Positions 40,332-46,531 of a stretch of DNA of 64,000 bases are shown in pieces (position 1 is the stretch's first letter; each line of letters starts with the position of its first letter). The notes under the pieces were generated by a model. That model did no database searches, was not told where the DNA came from, and was given only the letters and a program-made list of their open reading frames with translations. The DNA lies in the NCBI GenBank assembly GCA_019448385.1, contig JAGTXO010000009.1:744001-808000 (forward strand), read 5' to 3'. The stretch is from Diacronema lutheri. Taxonomy: Eukaryota; Haptophyta; Pavlovophyceae; Pavlovales; Pavlovaceae. The translations under genes were made by a program, and so were the position numbers.

Positions 40332-42025
40332 TCAGAAATTGCTTGAGAAGGGCGGCGATGCGGTTGAGCGGTGCTCGCGGCCCGGCGTGGGCAAATCCGC
40401 CTCGTTCTCTTCGACCCGGCCTGCCGTCGCGACGACGCGCGGCGCAAAGGTGGCGAGGTTTGCGCGCAGGACGGGCTGGCGCGCACGCCGGCGGGAGGAG
40501 GGGTAGGGGGGGGGGGGGGGGGGGGGGAGGCGGGAGGCAGGAGGCGGGCCATCCTCCCCCTCCCATACTTGCAGCTGCGAGCGGCGCGCGCGACGCACGG
40601 CGTGCCGAGTCCCGCCTCCACACGACGGCCGTGGCGAGCAGCACGACGGGCTTGAGGAGCGCGGCGAGGAGATAGCAACCGTCGGCAAACGCCTGCGCGC
40701 CAGTCATCGCCGCCCACGCGGGCATCGCGCCGAGCCGATACACGTCGACAAGCAGCGAAAGGGACGTGAGCGCGAAGAAGGCGAGGAGCACGTCCGTCTT
40801 GCCCGTGTCCACGAAATGCAGCCCAATCAGCTGCACCAGTGCCTGCCACTCAATCTGCAGCCGCGAGTCGACGACACATAAGCGCGCGCGCCGTCGGCGG
40901 CGGCCGAAGGGGCGGGCGCGCGCGCGTCGGTGCACTGCGCACTGCGCACTGCGCGCTGCGCGCAGCGCGCAGCGCGCAGCGCGCAGCGCGCAGCGCGCAG
41001 CGCGCAGCGCGCTGCGCGGGCGGCGTGGCGCAACTGCGGCGTGGCGCCTTGCCTGCTTGAGCGCGCAGCCAAGCAGCAGGAGGAGCTGCGCGCTCAGCGC
41101 GAGCGCGAGCGCCTTGCGCGCGTTGTCCATATCGAGGAGCGTGACCCACAGCCCGCGCGCACTCCCAGCGTCCCAGAGCGAGAGCAGCTGCGCGAGCAGA
41201 GCGGAGAGCGCGACGGTCATGATCACAAACGCGAGCTGCAGGACGCCGAACGACGCCTCGAGGCCGACCGCGCCCCAGCCCAAACTCGATGGCGCCGCGT
41301 ACGCGAAACAGCTGAGAGAGATGAACAGGAAAAACCAGGAGCTCGTCCAGCAGACGACGAGCGCAAGCGCGAGCGCAGCATCGGACAGGCCGGCGGCGGC
41401 GAGCGCGTACCGGGCGCTCTTGGCAGCGCCGAGCGAGCTGGAGAACCAGAGGACGCCAGACAGCGTTGCTGCGACCCACAGAGGCAAATAGCCGAGCAAT
41501 AGGAAAGATTGCGCGCGCGAGCCGGCGCGCGCGAGCTGGCACCAGACGGCCTGGTCAGTCTCCGATGCGGGCACGCGTGCGTAAGGCAGCGGCGCCGACT
41601 CGTCGGTGCACAGCTTGCGTAGCGCGGTCGGGTGGGCGAAGCGCACGCCACGGTTCGCCTGCGGCTCGCCAAAGCGGACGGCGCCGAGCGAGACGAGCGC
41701 GTCTCGAGGCCGGCCGAGGTGCATCGACGTGCCTGACATCAGCGGCGCGCGCAGGACGCACGGCGTCGGAGCCGGCAGCACGCGCGCACGGATCGAGCGC
41801 GTGATCCGACGGCGCGCGCGCGGATGCACGGCGTCGGACCAAGCGCGCGCCGGCGCGCGCACCGCGCAGCCACTCGTGCCCGTCGAGCGAGATGCCGACG
41901 AGGAATATGCAGAGGAGCGCGGTAAATGTGCTGCCCGGCGCAATCGCGTCGAGGCTCGATGCCGCGAGCCGCCGGCTCGCCGCGTCGCGCACCGCGCGCG
42001 CCGAGTCTCGCGCCGAGTTGAGCAT
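40332..42025 (-). CDS. Polytopic membrane protein with AGTRAP-like C-terminal segment
   Basis: Function unknown. Exons 42025-41863, 41732-41053 and 40854 to about 40600 join in phase; the 3' exon ending near 40332 is uncertain because several donor/acceptor pairs are possible. Seven or eight hydrophobic segments are visible, such as FTALLCIFLVGISL, SFLLLGYLPLWVAATLSGVL, WFFLFISLSCFAYAA and VIMTVALSALLAQLL. The segment TGKTDVLLAFFALTSLSLLV, then a Pro-containing loop and LLAALLKPVVLLATAVVWRR, resembles the membrane part of angiotensin-receptor-associated proteins in spacing and residues, but this is a weak match by eye. Intron 1 starts GTGCGC (130 bp). Intron 2 (40855-41052) uses a GC donor (CAG|GCAAGG) and contains a palindromic GCGCAGC-type array. 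Confidence 0.6.
40506..40527. repeat. Poly-G run in the last intron of the membrane-protein gene
   Basis: About 22 consecutive G on the plus strand (C on the sense strand), probably in the final intron. Confidence 0.85.
40924..41020. repeat. Palindromic GCGCAGC-type simple repeat in a GC-AG intron
   Basis: A run of cactgcg and gcgcagc units of about 8 bp (gcgcagcgcgcagcgcgcag) fills half of intron 40855-41052. Each unit is self-complementary, so the transcript could fold into many alternative hairpins. Confidence 0.75.
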
Positions 42026-42078
42026 CAGCCTGCCCGTTCAAACAGCGCCAAATTTTGGGCGGGCCCTTCCATGGGAAG
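42026..42078. promoter_or_regulatory. 53-bp divergent promoter (membrane protein / RING-CH-AlgH)
   Basis: Two head-to-head ATGs lie 53 bp apart. The spacer holds gcgccaaattttgggcgg, in which GCGCCAAA (42045-42052) is an E2F/DP-type site on the minus strand. Confidence 0.5.
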
Positions 42079-43320
42079 ATGGCCGCGATGCCAGCTGGTG
42101 ATGACATGGCGGACGAGCCGACCTGCCGAATTTGCTGGGAGGCGCCGGCGCGCGAGCCGCTCCTGCAGCCGTGCGCTTGCCGCGGCACACACGCGCACGT
42201 GCACGCGTCGTGCCTCGAGCGGTGGCGCGCGCAAGTCGAGCGGCCCGACGTGTGCACCGTCTGCCTCGCGCGGTACCATGGCGTGCCGGCGCAGCGTCGG
42301 CGCGCGCGCGGTGCGCACAGCGCGCGCGCCCGTTTGGCCGGCCTCGCGCTCACCGCGTTGGCTGCCCTGTGCGCTGCCGCCGCGGCGCGAGGCGCGCGCT
42401 GCCCGCCGTGGCTCGCGCGTCCGCTCGGCGCGCTCGAGCCCGCGTGGGCGGGGCTCAGTCCGCTCAAAGTGCTCGCCGGCGCTCTCGCGCTGCACCTCGC
42501 GGCCATCTTGCACGAGCTGCGCGCCCTTGCCGCCGCGCTCGCACCCGCGCCCGTCCGCGCGCTCCGGCGCGGTCTCCTCCTCGCCGCGACCGACCGGATC
42601 GGGCCGGACTCGCCGTTCCAACGGTCCGTTGTACTCCTCACCGCCTACTCGCCGGAGCTCGGCGCCGCCGGCCTCGTGCTCAACAAGCCGCTGCCGCAGC
42701 GCGCCAATGCGCAGCGCTACGCCGACGCGTACGGCGGTCCCGTCGGCGCGGGCGCGGGCGCGGCCGCGTTCGCGCTGCTCGCCGGCGGCGCGCTCGGCGG
42801 CGGCGGCGGCGGCAGCGCGCGTCACTGGCTCGTCATCGCCGACGCGGGCGCGCCCGTGCCGCGCGGCGCGCAGCTCGCGTTGCCCGGCGTGAGCGTCGTG
42901 CCGCAGGACGCGCGCGTTGACGCCGACGCCGACGGCGAGGCAGCCGCTGAGGCCCACGGTGCGCGAGAGATTGCACGCGTCCTGCTGCATGGCTGCGCGG
43001 GCTGGGCGCCGCGCCAGCTCGACGGTGAGATGCGTCGCGGCGCGTGGCGGCTGCTGCACGCTGCCGAGCCTCGCGGCGCGGCACTCGGCAGCGGGCACGT
43101 GCGCGCCGCGCTCGTCGCCGCGCACGGCGCGCACGGGCTGGGCGGTGGCGGCGACGGCGCGATCCCCTTGGATCCGCCGGTGGCGCCGCGCGACGGCGGC
43201 GCCGGCGTCGAGCACGCCGCGGACGGGGCCGGCGCGGGCGAGGAGCCTCCCGGCGAGCTGCTGTGGCGTATGCTGATGGCCGACGAGGCGCGGCACGTGC
43301 CGCTTGACCTCGACGACTGA
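42079..43320 (+). CDS. RING-CH (MARCH-type) E3 ligase fused to an AlgH/UPF0301 domain
   Basis: Single exon, 413 residues. Residues about 14-68 form a C4HC3 RING-CH finger: CRICWEAP, CACRGTHAHVHASCLERW, CTVC. Two hydrophobic segments follow (LAGLALTALAALCAAAAA and LKVLAGALALHLAAILHEL), as in membrane-bound MARCH ubiquitin ligases. From about residue 165 to the C terminus is a complete AlgH/UPF0301 (DUF179) domain: LLAATDRIGPDSPFQRSVVL, GLVLNKPLP and the signature HGCAGWAPRQLDGEMRRG. UPF0301 proteins are normally single-domain and of unknown function. The start at 42079 is the first ATG; an upstream in-frame codon at 42055 is TTG. No intron is needed and the frame is continuous across both domains. 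Confidence 0.9.
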   Translation: MAAMPAGDDMADEPTCRICWEAPAREPLLQPCACRGTHAHVHASCLERWRAQVERPDVCTVCLARYHGVPAQRRRARGAHSARARLAGLALTALAALCAAAAARGARCPPWLARPLGALEPAWAGLSPLKVLAGALALHLAAILHELRALAAALAPAPVRALRRGLLLAATDRIGPDSPFQRSVVLLTAYSPELGAAGLVLNKPLPQRANAQRYADAYGGPVGAGAGAAAFALLAGGALGGGGGGSARHWLVIADAGAPVPRGAQLALPGVSVVPQDARVDADADGEAAAEAHGAREIARVLLHGCAGWAPRQLDGEMRRGAWRLLHAAEPRGAALGSGHVRAALVAAHGAHGLGGGGDGAIPLDPPVAPRDGGAGVEHAADGAGAGEEPPGELLWRMLMADEARHVPLDLDD

Positions 43321-43602: not shown

Positions 43603-46531
43603 CTAGGAGCGGGCGCGCGAGCGCACGAGCGTCGCGGCGACGCCGACGGCGAAGCCTACGCTGAAGATGACCACCGACGTAGCGATGCTCATCGGCCGGT
43701 AACTGCCATACGATGGCGGCGGCATGACGGGCGCGTACGCATTGCGCGAGCTTCGGCGCGCGCTCAGCGCGACGGGCTCGTCGTCGGCCACGTGCGCCGG
43801 CGCGTAGCCCGTCGCCTCGGCGAGGAAGGTGCGCAGCCCGGAGAGGGGGAGCAGCGACGTGTGCCGCCTCTTCCGCACGAGCTTGCTCGCGTTGATCGCC
43901 TCATTCATCGCCTCGTACCGGCGGCGCAGCTCGTCGGCGCTGCCTGACGTCGAGCGCGCGCGCACGACCGCCGGGCTGGGCGAGAGGATGGACGTGTGGT
44001 GCTCGAGCACGAAGACGCGCGACTCGGCCTCGAGCTGGCGGATTGCCGCAACATCCTCGCGCACGACGCTCTCGTCCGAGTGGCACAGGATGACCGAACC
44101 GGCCTGCTTGTGCGGGAGGAAGAGTGGAAGGGGGGGGGGTGGGTTTGCAGACGTACGGCGCGGCGCGGTGCGGTGCGACAGGACGGGGCGGGGCGGGGCG
44201 GGGCGGGGCGCGCGGCGGCGTTTCATACAGCGGGCGGGTTGTGCATGCGCGCTCTGCCGCGCGAGCGCGCGCGCGAAAGAGCAGAGCGCGGGCGTGCGCC
44301 GCCACGCGAGGCGAGCGCGCGCTGATCTGCGGCGCGCACGAGCCCGCCGCGCGCCGCGCGGCGGGCGCAGGCAGCGCGCGCCTGCGTGAAGACGTCCACG
44401 GTGCGCTCGAGCGTTGAGCCGACGTGCACGCCGGTCTCGAGCGAGACGAAGGAGCGGAGCTGCTTGAAGGCGTCGAGGCCGGGCGTCGCGACCACCTTGC
44501 CCTCGTCCGTCGAGACGAGGAGCACCTCCTGCCCCGCCGCGCGGAACGGGTGCGGCGGCCGGCTGGGCAGCTTTTCAAAAGCGGCGCCGGTCGGCTCGAA
44601 GGCGTCAATCGTTGCGTCGACCTGCGGGCGCGGCGCGGGCGCGACTGGCGCGGTGAGCGCGGGAAGAGGCCAAGCGCTTACGGTGGAGCGCAAGGGGCGC
44701 TGCTTTCTCGACAGCGCGCACGCGCGCCAAACCCGCAGGCCAAACCCGCACGCATAACCCGCTTGCAAAACCCGCACGCATAACCCGCTTGCAAAACCCG
44801 CACGCATAACCCGCACGAATAACCCGCTTGCAAAACCCGCACGCATAACCCGCGCGCCAAACCCGCACGCATAACCCGCACGCATAACCCGCACGCATAA
44901 CCCGCACGCATAACCCGCGCGCCAAACCCGCTTGCAAAACCCGCTTGCAAAACCCGCACGCATAACCCGCTTGCAAAACCCGCACGCATAACCCGCTTGC
45001 AAAACCCGCACGCATAACCCGCTTGCAAAACCCGCGCGCCAAACCCGCTTGCAAAACCCGCTTGCAAAACCCGCACGCATAACCCGCTTGCAAAACCCGC
45101 ACGCATAACCCGCTTGCAAAACCCGCGCGCCAAACCCGCTTGCAAAACCCGCACGCATAACCCGCACGCATAACCCGCTTGCATAACCCGCTTGCATAAC
45201 CCGCTTGCAAAACCCGCACGCATAACCCGCTTGCAAAACCAACCGCGCGCGCAGACCTGCGAGTAGCCGCCGGTAAGGCCGCGCGCGAGCGGCACCCACG
45301 CGCCGTCTCCGCCGTGCGTGCGGCAGTTCATCTCGACGAGGCACGGCCCGCTCTCCGTGAGCATCACCTCGCCGTGTGACGGGCCGTTACGGATGCCGAG
45401 GGCGTCGAGCACGCCGAACGTGTACGGCACGATCACGTTGATGACGGCCTGGTCGGCCACCGGCAGCTGCGAGCGGCGAGGGGCGCGCGCACGGCGCGGC
45501 GCGGCAGGCAAGCGGGCGTGAAGGCGCAAAGGCGCGTCGCGCAGGCACGCGCGGCCGGACGGGTGGAGCGGAGGTGGGGGGGGGGGGGGGGGGGGGGGGG
45601 TAAGCGAGAAGAAAGACGCGAGGCGGAGGTAGTGGACAGCGCGCGGAAGCAAAGCGCGCCGTCGCGCGGAGACCCCGCCGCACACGGCTCCCGCTAGCGA
45701 CGCCGTGCGCCCCGCTGCGCCCCGCGCTACACGCCGCGCCCCGCCCCGCGCCCCGCCGGCCGCCGCGCCGCCCCGCGTCGCGCGCACCATGTTAAAGTAG
45801 ACGAACGGCGCGCCGTTGAGTGGTCGCTTGTCGTACAGCCACACCATGCACGCTTTGTGCACGCCGTCGCGCGAGACGGAATCGACGACGTACTCCTTGC
45901 CGCGGAGGAACTCCTGCACGAGGATCCCCGCGCCCTGCGCGCCGAACTTGCGCTGCTCGCCCGCCAGCTTGACGAAGTGCTCGTGCGCCTCAGCGGTCGA
46001 CCTGCACAGCTTCACACCGTCAGAACCCGCCGACTCGACGGGCTTGACGATGACGGGCATGGGCTCGGAGGCGACAAAGGAGGCGACCTCGTCCCACGTC
46101 GTGCCGCCCGCCTCGCGGCACGAGCGCAGCCCCGCCGCGCGCACCGCCTCCTGCTGCACCTTTTTGTTCCGGCGCGAGTCGGACTTGGCCGAGCCGTTGG
46201 TCCGAAGCCCAACCGCCTCCGAGACGCGGTCGGCGACCTTGACGCCCGACTCGCACCCGCACACGACGGCCATCAGCTCCGTCTCGCCCAGCGCGCCGCG
46301 CAGCGCCGCGACCGTGTCCTCGAGCGTCGGCCGCTCCTCGACCTCGGCCGCGAAGCGGAGGTGCGACGCGACGCAGATCGGCACGTGCGAGCGGAACGAC
46401 GGCGGCAAATCGAGGGTCCAGAGAGCGATGACGGCGTACCCGCGGAGCAAGGCCTCGAGCGCCACGTTGGCGCCCGTCGAAACCGGGTCCACCACGACGA
46501 TCGAGCCCGTGGGCTCCTTGGCTCTCGGCAT
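43603..46531 (-). CDS. ATP-grasp carboxylate-amine ligase-like protein with C-terminal membrane anchor
   Basis: ATP-grasp enzymes couple ATP hydrolysis to acylphosphate formation and ligation of an amine or thiol; the substrate here is unknown. Exons 46531-45788, 45466-45257, 44621-44382 and 44103-43603 join in phase to 564 residues. Features include an N-terminal Rossmann-like preATP-grasp fold (SIVVVDPVSTGANVALEALL), ATP-binding PVIVKPVESAGSDGVKL, FLRGKEYVVDSVS and the Mg2+-binding ESGPCLVEMNCRTHGGDGAW. This pattern resembles L-amino-acid ligase and dapdiamide-synthase relatives. The last residues, MSIATSVVIFSVGFAVGVAA then LVRSRARS, are a tail anchor with a basic end. Intron donors are GTGCGC, GTCTGC and GCGCGC; introns 1 and 2 hold a poly-G run and a 13-bp minisatellite. 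Confidence 0.85.
44728..45241. repeat. 13-bp mosaic minisatellite in ATP-grasp intron 2
   Basis: About 39 uninterrupted units of acccgc plus seven bases, in a few discrete variants: acccgcacgcata, acccgcttgcaaa, acccgcgcgccaa, rarer acccgcttgcata and acccgcacgaata. Variants are interspersed, not blocked. The array fills most of the 635-bp intron 44622-45256. Confidence 0.95.
45576..45600. repeat. Poly-G run in ATP-grasp intron 1
   Basis: About 25 consecutive G on the plus strand (C on the sense strand) inside intron 45467-45787. Confidence 0.9.

Follow-up and report, generated by a model that had tools for sequence, protein, structure and literature searches.

An open reading frame of the haptophyte Diacronema lutheri that joins a RING-CH finger to an AlgH/UPF0301 domain

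Introduction

Do a RING-CH finger, which attaches ubiquitin, and an AlgH/UPF0301 domain (DUF179) belong to a single protein of Diacronema lutheri, and if so, what might AlgH do there? The AlgH/UPF0301 domain is found in bacteria and in plastid-bearing eukaryotes, and we know of no agreed function for it. A first-pass annotation, made from the sequence alone, had reported the two domains as a fusion. Because such a fusion naturally joins AlgH to an enzyme of known activity, it makes the role of AlgH testable: proteins bound by AlgH should be ubiquitinated by the attached ligase, or should control it. We therefore analyzed the locus in a window of 64,000 nucleotides (contig JAGTXO010000009.1, positions 744,001 to 808,000), to which the positions given below refer.

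A RING-CH finger and an AlgH core in one frame

The two domains are coded in one open frame of 413 codons (Table 1), and its coordinates and stop codon agree with those of the first-pass annotation. In a search with PF12906 and PF02622, both domains scored above the Pfam cut-offs (RINGv, 41.1 bits with a cut-off of 21.6; DUF179, 49.3 bits with a cut-off of 27, at residues 177-330), which upholds the reported fusion. The RINGv match covered the full profile (1-47 of 47), and all eight C4HC3 ligands (C16, C19, C32, C34, H42, C45, C59 and C62) were present in the RING-CH spacing C-x2-C-x12-C-x-C-x7-H-x2-C-x13-C-x2-C. Thus, the finger is complete, as had been claimed. Its best four PDB sequence matches were 2m6m and 8pd0 (both DOA10), 1vyx (viral K3) and 2d8s, which was deposited under the title cellular modulator of immune recognition; all four are RING-CH ligases or viral kin of these. 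The sequence of the finger predicts E3 ubiquitin ligase activity.

Chance was assessed with 2000 shuffles, in which the compositions of residues 1-75 and 76-413 were kept apart. A RING-CH profile built from six other RING-CH fingers of the D. lutheri genome scored 46.2 bits with the protein and at most 8.0 bits with the shuffles; for the bacterial AlgH profile described below, the corresponding values were 50.2 and 3.9 bits. Because the observed scores were far above the best of 2000 shuffles, a chance origin of both domains is excluded.

Table 1. Features of the RING-CH–AlgH locus (window positions).
Feature	Positions	Strand	Evidence or remark
Whole ORF	42079..43320	+	413 aa, stop TGA, stop-to-stop frame 432 codons
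RING-CH (RINGv, C4HC3) finger, residues 16-62	42124..42264	+	PF12906 41.1 bits, eight ligands
Possible membrane span 1, residues 84-103	42328..42387	+	KD 1.78, marginal; AlphaFold helix 74-103
Possible membrane span 2, residues 126-144	42454..42510	+	KD 1.81, marginal; K130 and H139 inside; AlphaFold helix 128-154
AlgH/UPF0301 (DUF179) core, residues 164-329	42568..43065	+	Pfam, bacterial profile, conserved residues, fold
Gly/Ala-rich insert in AlgH domain, residues 225-251	42751..42831	+	pLDDT < 50; tandem repeats 42746-42821
Low-complexity tail with short predicted helix, residues 391-400 near ELLWRMLM	43066..43317	+	Model, low confidence

The AlgH half

The AlgH half carries the core motifs GLVLNKP (198-204), YGGPV (218-222) and HGCAGWAPRQLDGEMRRGAW (304-323); HGCAGWAPRQLDGEMRRG corresponds to residues 304-321 of the protein, and the cysteine of the HGCAGW motif is C306. 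For comparison, we built a profile of 48 diverse bacterial AlgH proteins, for which 120 pattern-matched loci gave 109 recognised ORFs, 97 of them of suitable length and start. This profile aligned to residues 164-329 (best domain, 47.8 bits). Identity was at least 95% in 21 columns of the 48 bacterial rows, one of which was dropped as an artefactual start Met. The AlgH half keeps 18 of the remaining 20 columns and differs by G312R and E315D. Eight of the 20 columns were fixed by the selection of the sequences, seven by the fetch pattern and motif and one (N202) by a second required motif; the 12 unselected columns are all kept (L168, A170, D177, F180, G195, G198, G219, G220, P221, V222, G305 and W323). 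We assign GGPV from the bacterial alignment; when the protein was aligned with its D. lutheri paralogs in a small MAFFT set, another GG, near residues 228-236, fell at this motif.

The domain had been described as full. The core is indeed present, but it contains a Gly/Ala-rich insert near residues 225-251, and the sequence after residue 329 is of low complexity. The helix predicted in this tail is possibly the counterpart of the C-terminal W..AL helix of bacterial AlgH, judging by eye from its likeness to the consensus. Further, the best match to the NCBIfam YqgE/AlgH equivalogs reached 40.1 bits, far under the cut-off of 225, and we therefore regard the AlgH half as a divergent member rather than a standard bacterial AlgH.

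An AlphaFold2 model was built on the bacterial AlgH alignment, which had no rows for the finger. Its mean pLDDT was 60.9, with values above 90 in residues 161-200 and 311-320, about 60 to 90 in most of the remaining AlgH domain, and below 50 in the insert, most of the finger and the tail. When the model was compared with the PDB using Foldseek, seven matches were obtained at E<=0.001 (identity 15-19%, TM-score by target 0.48-0.61), including P. aeruginosa AlgH (2mui). All seven were AlgH-family chains that were also found by the AlgH profile, which matches eight distinct PDB sequences. The fold supports the sequence result but is not independent of it, as AlgH rows went into the model. Bacterial AlgH/YqgE (UPF0301, PF02622) thus has in common with the D. 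lutheri protein the fold and the 12 unselected columns, including GGPV. In contrast to the bacterial proteins, which stand alone (97 of the 109 recognised ORFs are 165-225 aa long with a Met start), the AlgH domain here lies C-terminal to a RING-CH finger and carries the insert and the two substitutions.

What AlgH might do in the fusion

The architecture is a new one made from known parts. An N-terminal C4HC3 finger is common to this protein, to MARCH and viral K3-type ligases, and to DOA10, which has many membrane spans. Here, the finger is followed by a pair of helices, which are marginally hydrophobic, and, unlike in these ligases, by a C-terminal AlgH domain. Kinship with MARCH was not seen beyond the finger, outside which Pfam reported DUF179 only; the PDB matches of this region at E<=1 were one UPF0301 chain and three enzymes. 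In two-span MARCH ligases, the parts outside the finger select clients.

We propose, with a probability of roughly 40%, that the fusion is an E3 bound to a membrane, with an AlgH domain that recruits clients at the cytosolic face. The N-terminal finger would recruit an E2 in the cytosol, and the short helix pair would probably anchor the protein in the membrane as a hairpin. The C-terminal AlgH domain, which would then likewise face the cytosol, might dock a client protein, or else an adaptor, at the membrane and keep it in place while ubiquitin is transferred. The role in substrate recognition or membrane quality control that the first-pass annotation had suggested is an inference of the same kind. 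If AlgH does act on or through the ligase in this way, the fusion would suggest what the bacterial and plastid AlgH proteins do. It hints, in a form open to test, that AlgH may select proteins to be removed.

Plant members of the family bear on this proposal. According to the accessible part of a study of Arabidopsis, DUF179-3 and DUF179-1 are CLPC1 interactors of the plastid stroma, the former 4.6-fold in the trap and the latter 1.3-fold and "independent of trapping" (PMC8889267). The same part of the source discusses the CLPC1 interactors of unknown function collectively as possible adaptors or anti-adaptors of CLP, and assigns DUF179-3 to a coexpression module with many genes of ubiquitin and autophagy pathways; the DUF179 family is weakly connected in coexpression, and DUF179-2 is predicted to be secretory and is no CLPC1 interactor (PMC8889267). 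The CLPC1 association of DUF179-1 and DUF179-3 suits a recruiter role for AlgH. These two are likewise eukaryotic DUF179 proteins linked to regulated proteolysis, but are plastid stromal; in the part of the study at hand, no RING finger is named for the Arabidopsis DUF179 proteins, and a figure legend gives an F-box-like domain with the family unspecified (PMC8889267). A more general reading, in which AlgH/UPF0301 is a client-recruiting quality-control domain that works with the CLPC unfoldase in plastids and is wired here to a cytosol-facing RING-CH ligase, would give a long-uncharacterised and widespread domain a direct link to ubiquitin-dependent degradation, but is a speculation that we consider improbable.

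The bacterial neighbourhood of AlgH points to thiol redox rather than to proteolysis. We surveyed 75 ORFs beside 48 AlgH genes; the rule used to choose them was crude, and some may be non-genes. Among the 25 families listed of 46, the commonest were DsbD_N (10 of the 75 ORFs) and RuvX (six); there were three Redoxin and three AhpC-TSA matches (possibly in the same ORFs), two of Thioredoxin and, as peptidases, one each of Peptidase_M24 and M28. All ten DsbD_N-like neighbours, recognised by similarity, were transcribed divergently from AlgH; Hyphomicrobiales and Rhodobacterales contributed five each. We therefore keep as the main rival a real fusion in which AlgH has a regulatory or redox-sensing role: it would respond to thiol or oxidative conditions and switch the ligase or set its position. 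The accessible part of the plant study has a point on each side, in that a figure legend covering DUF179 and other families lists PDI/thioredoxin domains, whereas the CLPC1 association of two DUF179 proteins points to proteolysis (PMC8889267). On the bacterial side, the DsbD neighbourhood, drawn from ORFs chosen by the crude rule, was confined to two alphaproteobacterial orders and may mirror one ancestral arrangement. The plant PDI/thioredoxin domains are presumably those of DUF179-2. On balance, we judge a redox-regulated ligase to be a serious rival, somewhat less likely than the client-recruiting reading.

The divergent AlgH–DsbD_N pairs (L027, L029, L035, L046, L055, L057, L067, L074, L109 and L121) may in their own right be a clue to AlgH function.

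The linker helices

The proposed client-recruiting ligase would be anchored by the linker, for which the first-pass annotation had claimed two membrane spans. Two helices are predicted after the finger, but their hydropathy is marginal (Table 1). The helices recurred nearly unchanged, at low confidence, when residues 1-165 were modelled without an alignment (mean pLDDT 58.8). When the whole protein was shuffled 2000 times and scored with a residue hydropathy scale, the hydropathy of span 1 was reached by 267 shuffles and that of both spans by 24. On this scale, the Gly/Ala insert was between the two spans, above span 2.

These values raise the alternative of a soluble or peripheral RING-CH E3, in which the helices would form a soluble Ala-rich hairpin instead of membrane spans. 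Along with the marginal hydropathy of both spans, this reading is favoured by a comparison within the genome: of 11 other RING-CH frames, eight have a stronger best hydropathy window. However, residues 86-103 form a continuous uncharged stretch of 18 residues, the modelled helices are 30 and 27 residues long, and in two of those eight frames (L008 and L010) the second window is likewise weak. We consider the soluble form doubtful, and membrane spans plausible. Lys and Arg are most frequent before the first helix (six, compared with three between the helices and four after the second); thus, if the spans are real, both ends would be cytosolic, as the client-recruiting reading supposes.

Integrity of the gene

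The frame starts at its first ATG, which is in good context (A at -3, G at +4), and lies in the interior of a 1.21 Mb contig. Its Met codons are residues 1, 4, 10, 318, 398 and 400. As the Met codon at residue 10 is followed by none before residue 318, AlgH could not initiate alone from an ATG of this frame. Further, GC3 is even along the ORF (finger, 0.85; linker, 0.87; AlgH, 0.89; tail, 0.92). On the minus strand, a divergent frame has its ATG at 42025, 53 bases from the start, which leaves little space for upstream exons. The first-pass annotation had called the gene a single exon; the frame is open throughout, and the claim rests on this open frame. For comparison, 45% of the annotated D. 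lutheri genes are single-exon, as given in the accessible part of the genome report (PMC8379373).

We take the locus to be a real nuclear gene, most likely of D. lutheri, that codes for one protein. An assembly join or a wrong gene model, in which two adjacent genes are read as one, might be suspected since no transcript was seen and no ortholog was found in the collections covered. Further, long chance frames arise in a genome of 73% GC, and an antisense frame of 491 codons overlaps the locus. Against a join stand the single open frame over both domains, the lack of an internal ATG for AlgH, the even GC3 and the position inside a large contig. The accessible part of the genome report for strain NIVA-4/92 gives 43,502,671 bp in 103 contigs, with 73.25% GC and a PacBio coverage of about 315x (PMC8379373). 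A join is accordingly very improbable.

The divergent start codons at 42025-42079, 53 bases apart, suggest a promoter region common to the RING-CH–AlgH gene and the minus-strand gene.

Relatives and origin

We searched the genome (43,492,796 bases in 103 contigs) for both domains by exon and scored only the best candidates, so that the counts are lower bounds. There were at least 12 RINGv matches in 12 places and at least six DUF179 matches in five frames. Among the matches found, C36 was the only contig on both lists, and the RING-CH–AlgH gene was the only joined pair. In L007, RINGv scored over the Pfam cut-off. With the whole protein as the query, two contigs with AlgH frames, C82 and C69, also gave RING-like matches that ranked under the RINGv list; on C82 the match was ~30 kb from the double AlgH frame, and on C69 it was hundreds of kb away from both AlgH frames of that contig.

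Two of the other AlgH frames have features of their own. In L003 (1075-2871; G000:C82), one frame has a presequence-like region at its N-terminus and codes for two AlgH domains in tandem. In L004 (minus strand; G000:C69:1332425-1332850), an AlgH domain ends a frame of 517 codons in which an N-terminal stretch is hydrophobic and about 300 residues match no Pfam family.

In protein databases, no relative was found with the whole protein or residues 155-340 as queries among 7997 and 7996 word-sharing candidates, respectively, which were probably drawn in by Ala-rich composition; with residues 8-72, for which there were two candidates only, none was found either. These negatives carry little weight. 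The collections covered were prokaryotic, viral, or uncertain for other algal proteins. Viral contigs gave no match to the whole protein. With the finger as the query, one locus (L147) was obtained, on what looks like a phage contig; we rejected it, since the match spans just 21 residues of the query and its frame lies antisense to a different open frame. Among the literature listed for AlgH/UPF0301/DUF179, for RING-CH architectures and for the symbiont-specific ubiquitin ligase, no entry named a RING-CH–AlgH fusion.

In a tree of 54 domains, the AlgH domain of the fusion stood apart from the five other D. lutheri AlgH domains on a branch of 5.32. A single clade for all six was not rejected (p-AU 0.416). 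Because the branch is very long and a single clade is compatible with the data, we claim no separate or bacterial origin for this AlgH domain.

Haptophytes have red-algal secondary plastids, and a SELMA-type symbiont ligase acts in plastid import and carries an N-terminal bipartite plastid targeting sequence. That the protein is such a ligase of the periplastid compartment, with AlgH as a plastid-derived passenger, would fit these plastids and the signal-like hydrophobic stretches near a plausible start in at least two of the four other AlgH frames (L002 and L004), but the protein starts MAAMPAGDDMADEPTCRIC and, by eye, has no signal peptide or transit-like region before the finger at residue 16, which makes this the least probable of the readings.

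Other frames of the window

Four other frames of the window were scanned with Pfam; three had no match, and one had matches over the cut-offs to ATP-grasp families. At 40951-41018, ~9.7 copies of the 7-base unit GCGCGCA lie in a minus-strand frame that, by eye, looks like a multi-span protein and has no Pfam match. Further, ~40 tandem copies of a 13-base unit (CGCACGCAAAACC) lie at 44721-45240 in the minus-strand frame with the ATP-grasp matches; this array is possibly an expanded intronic minisatellite.
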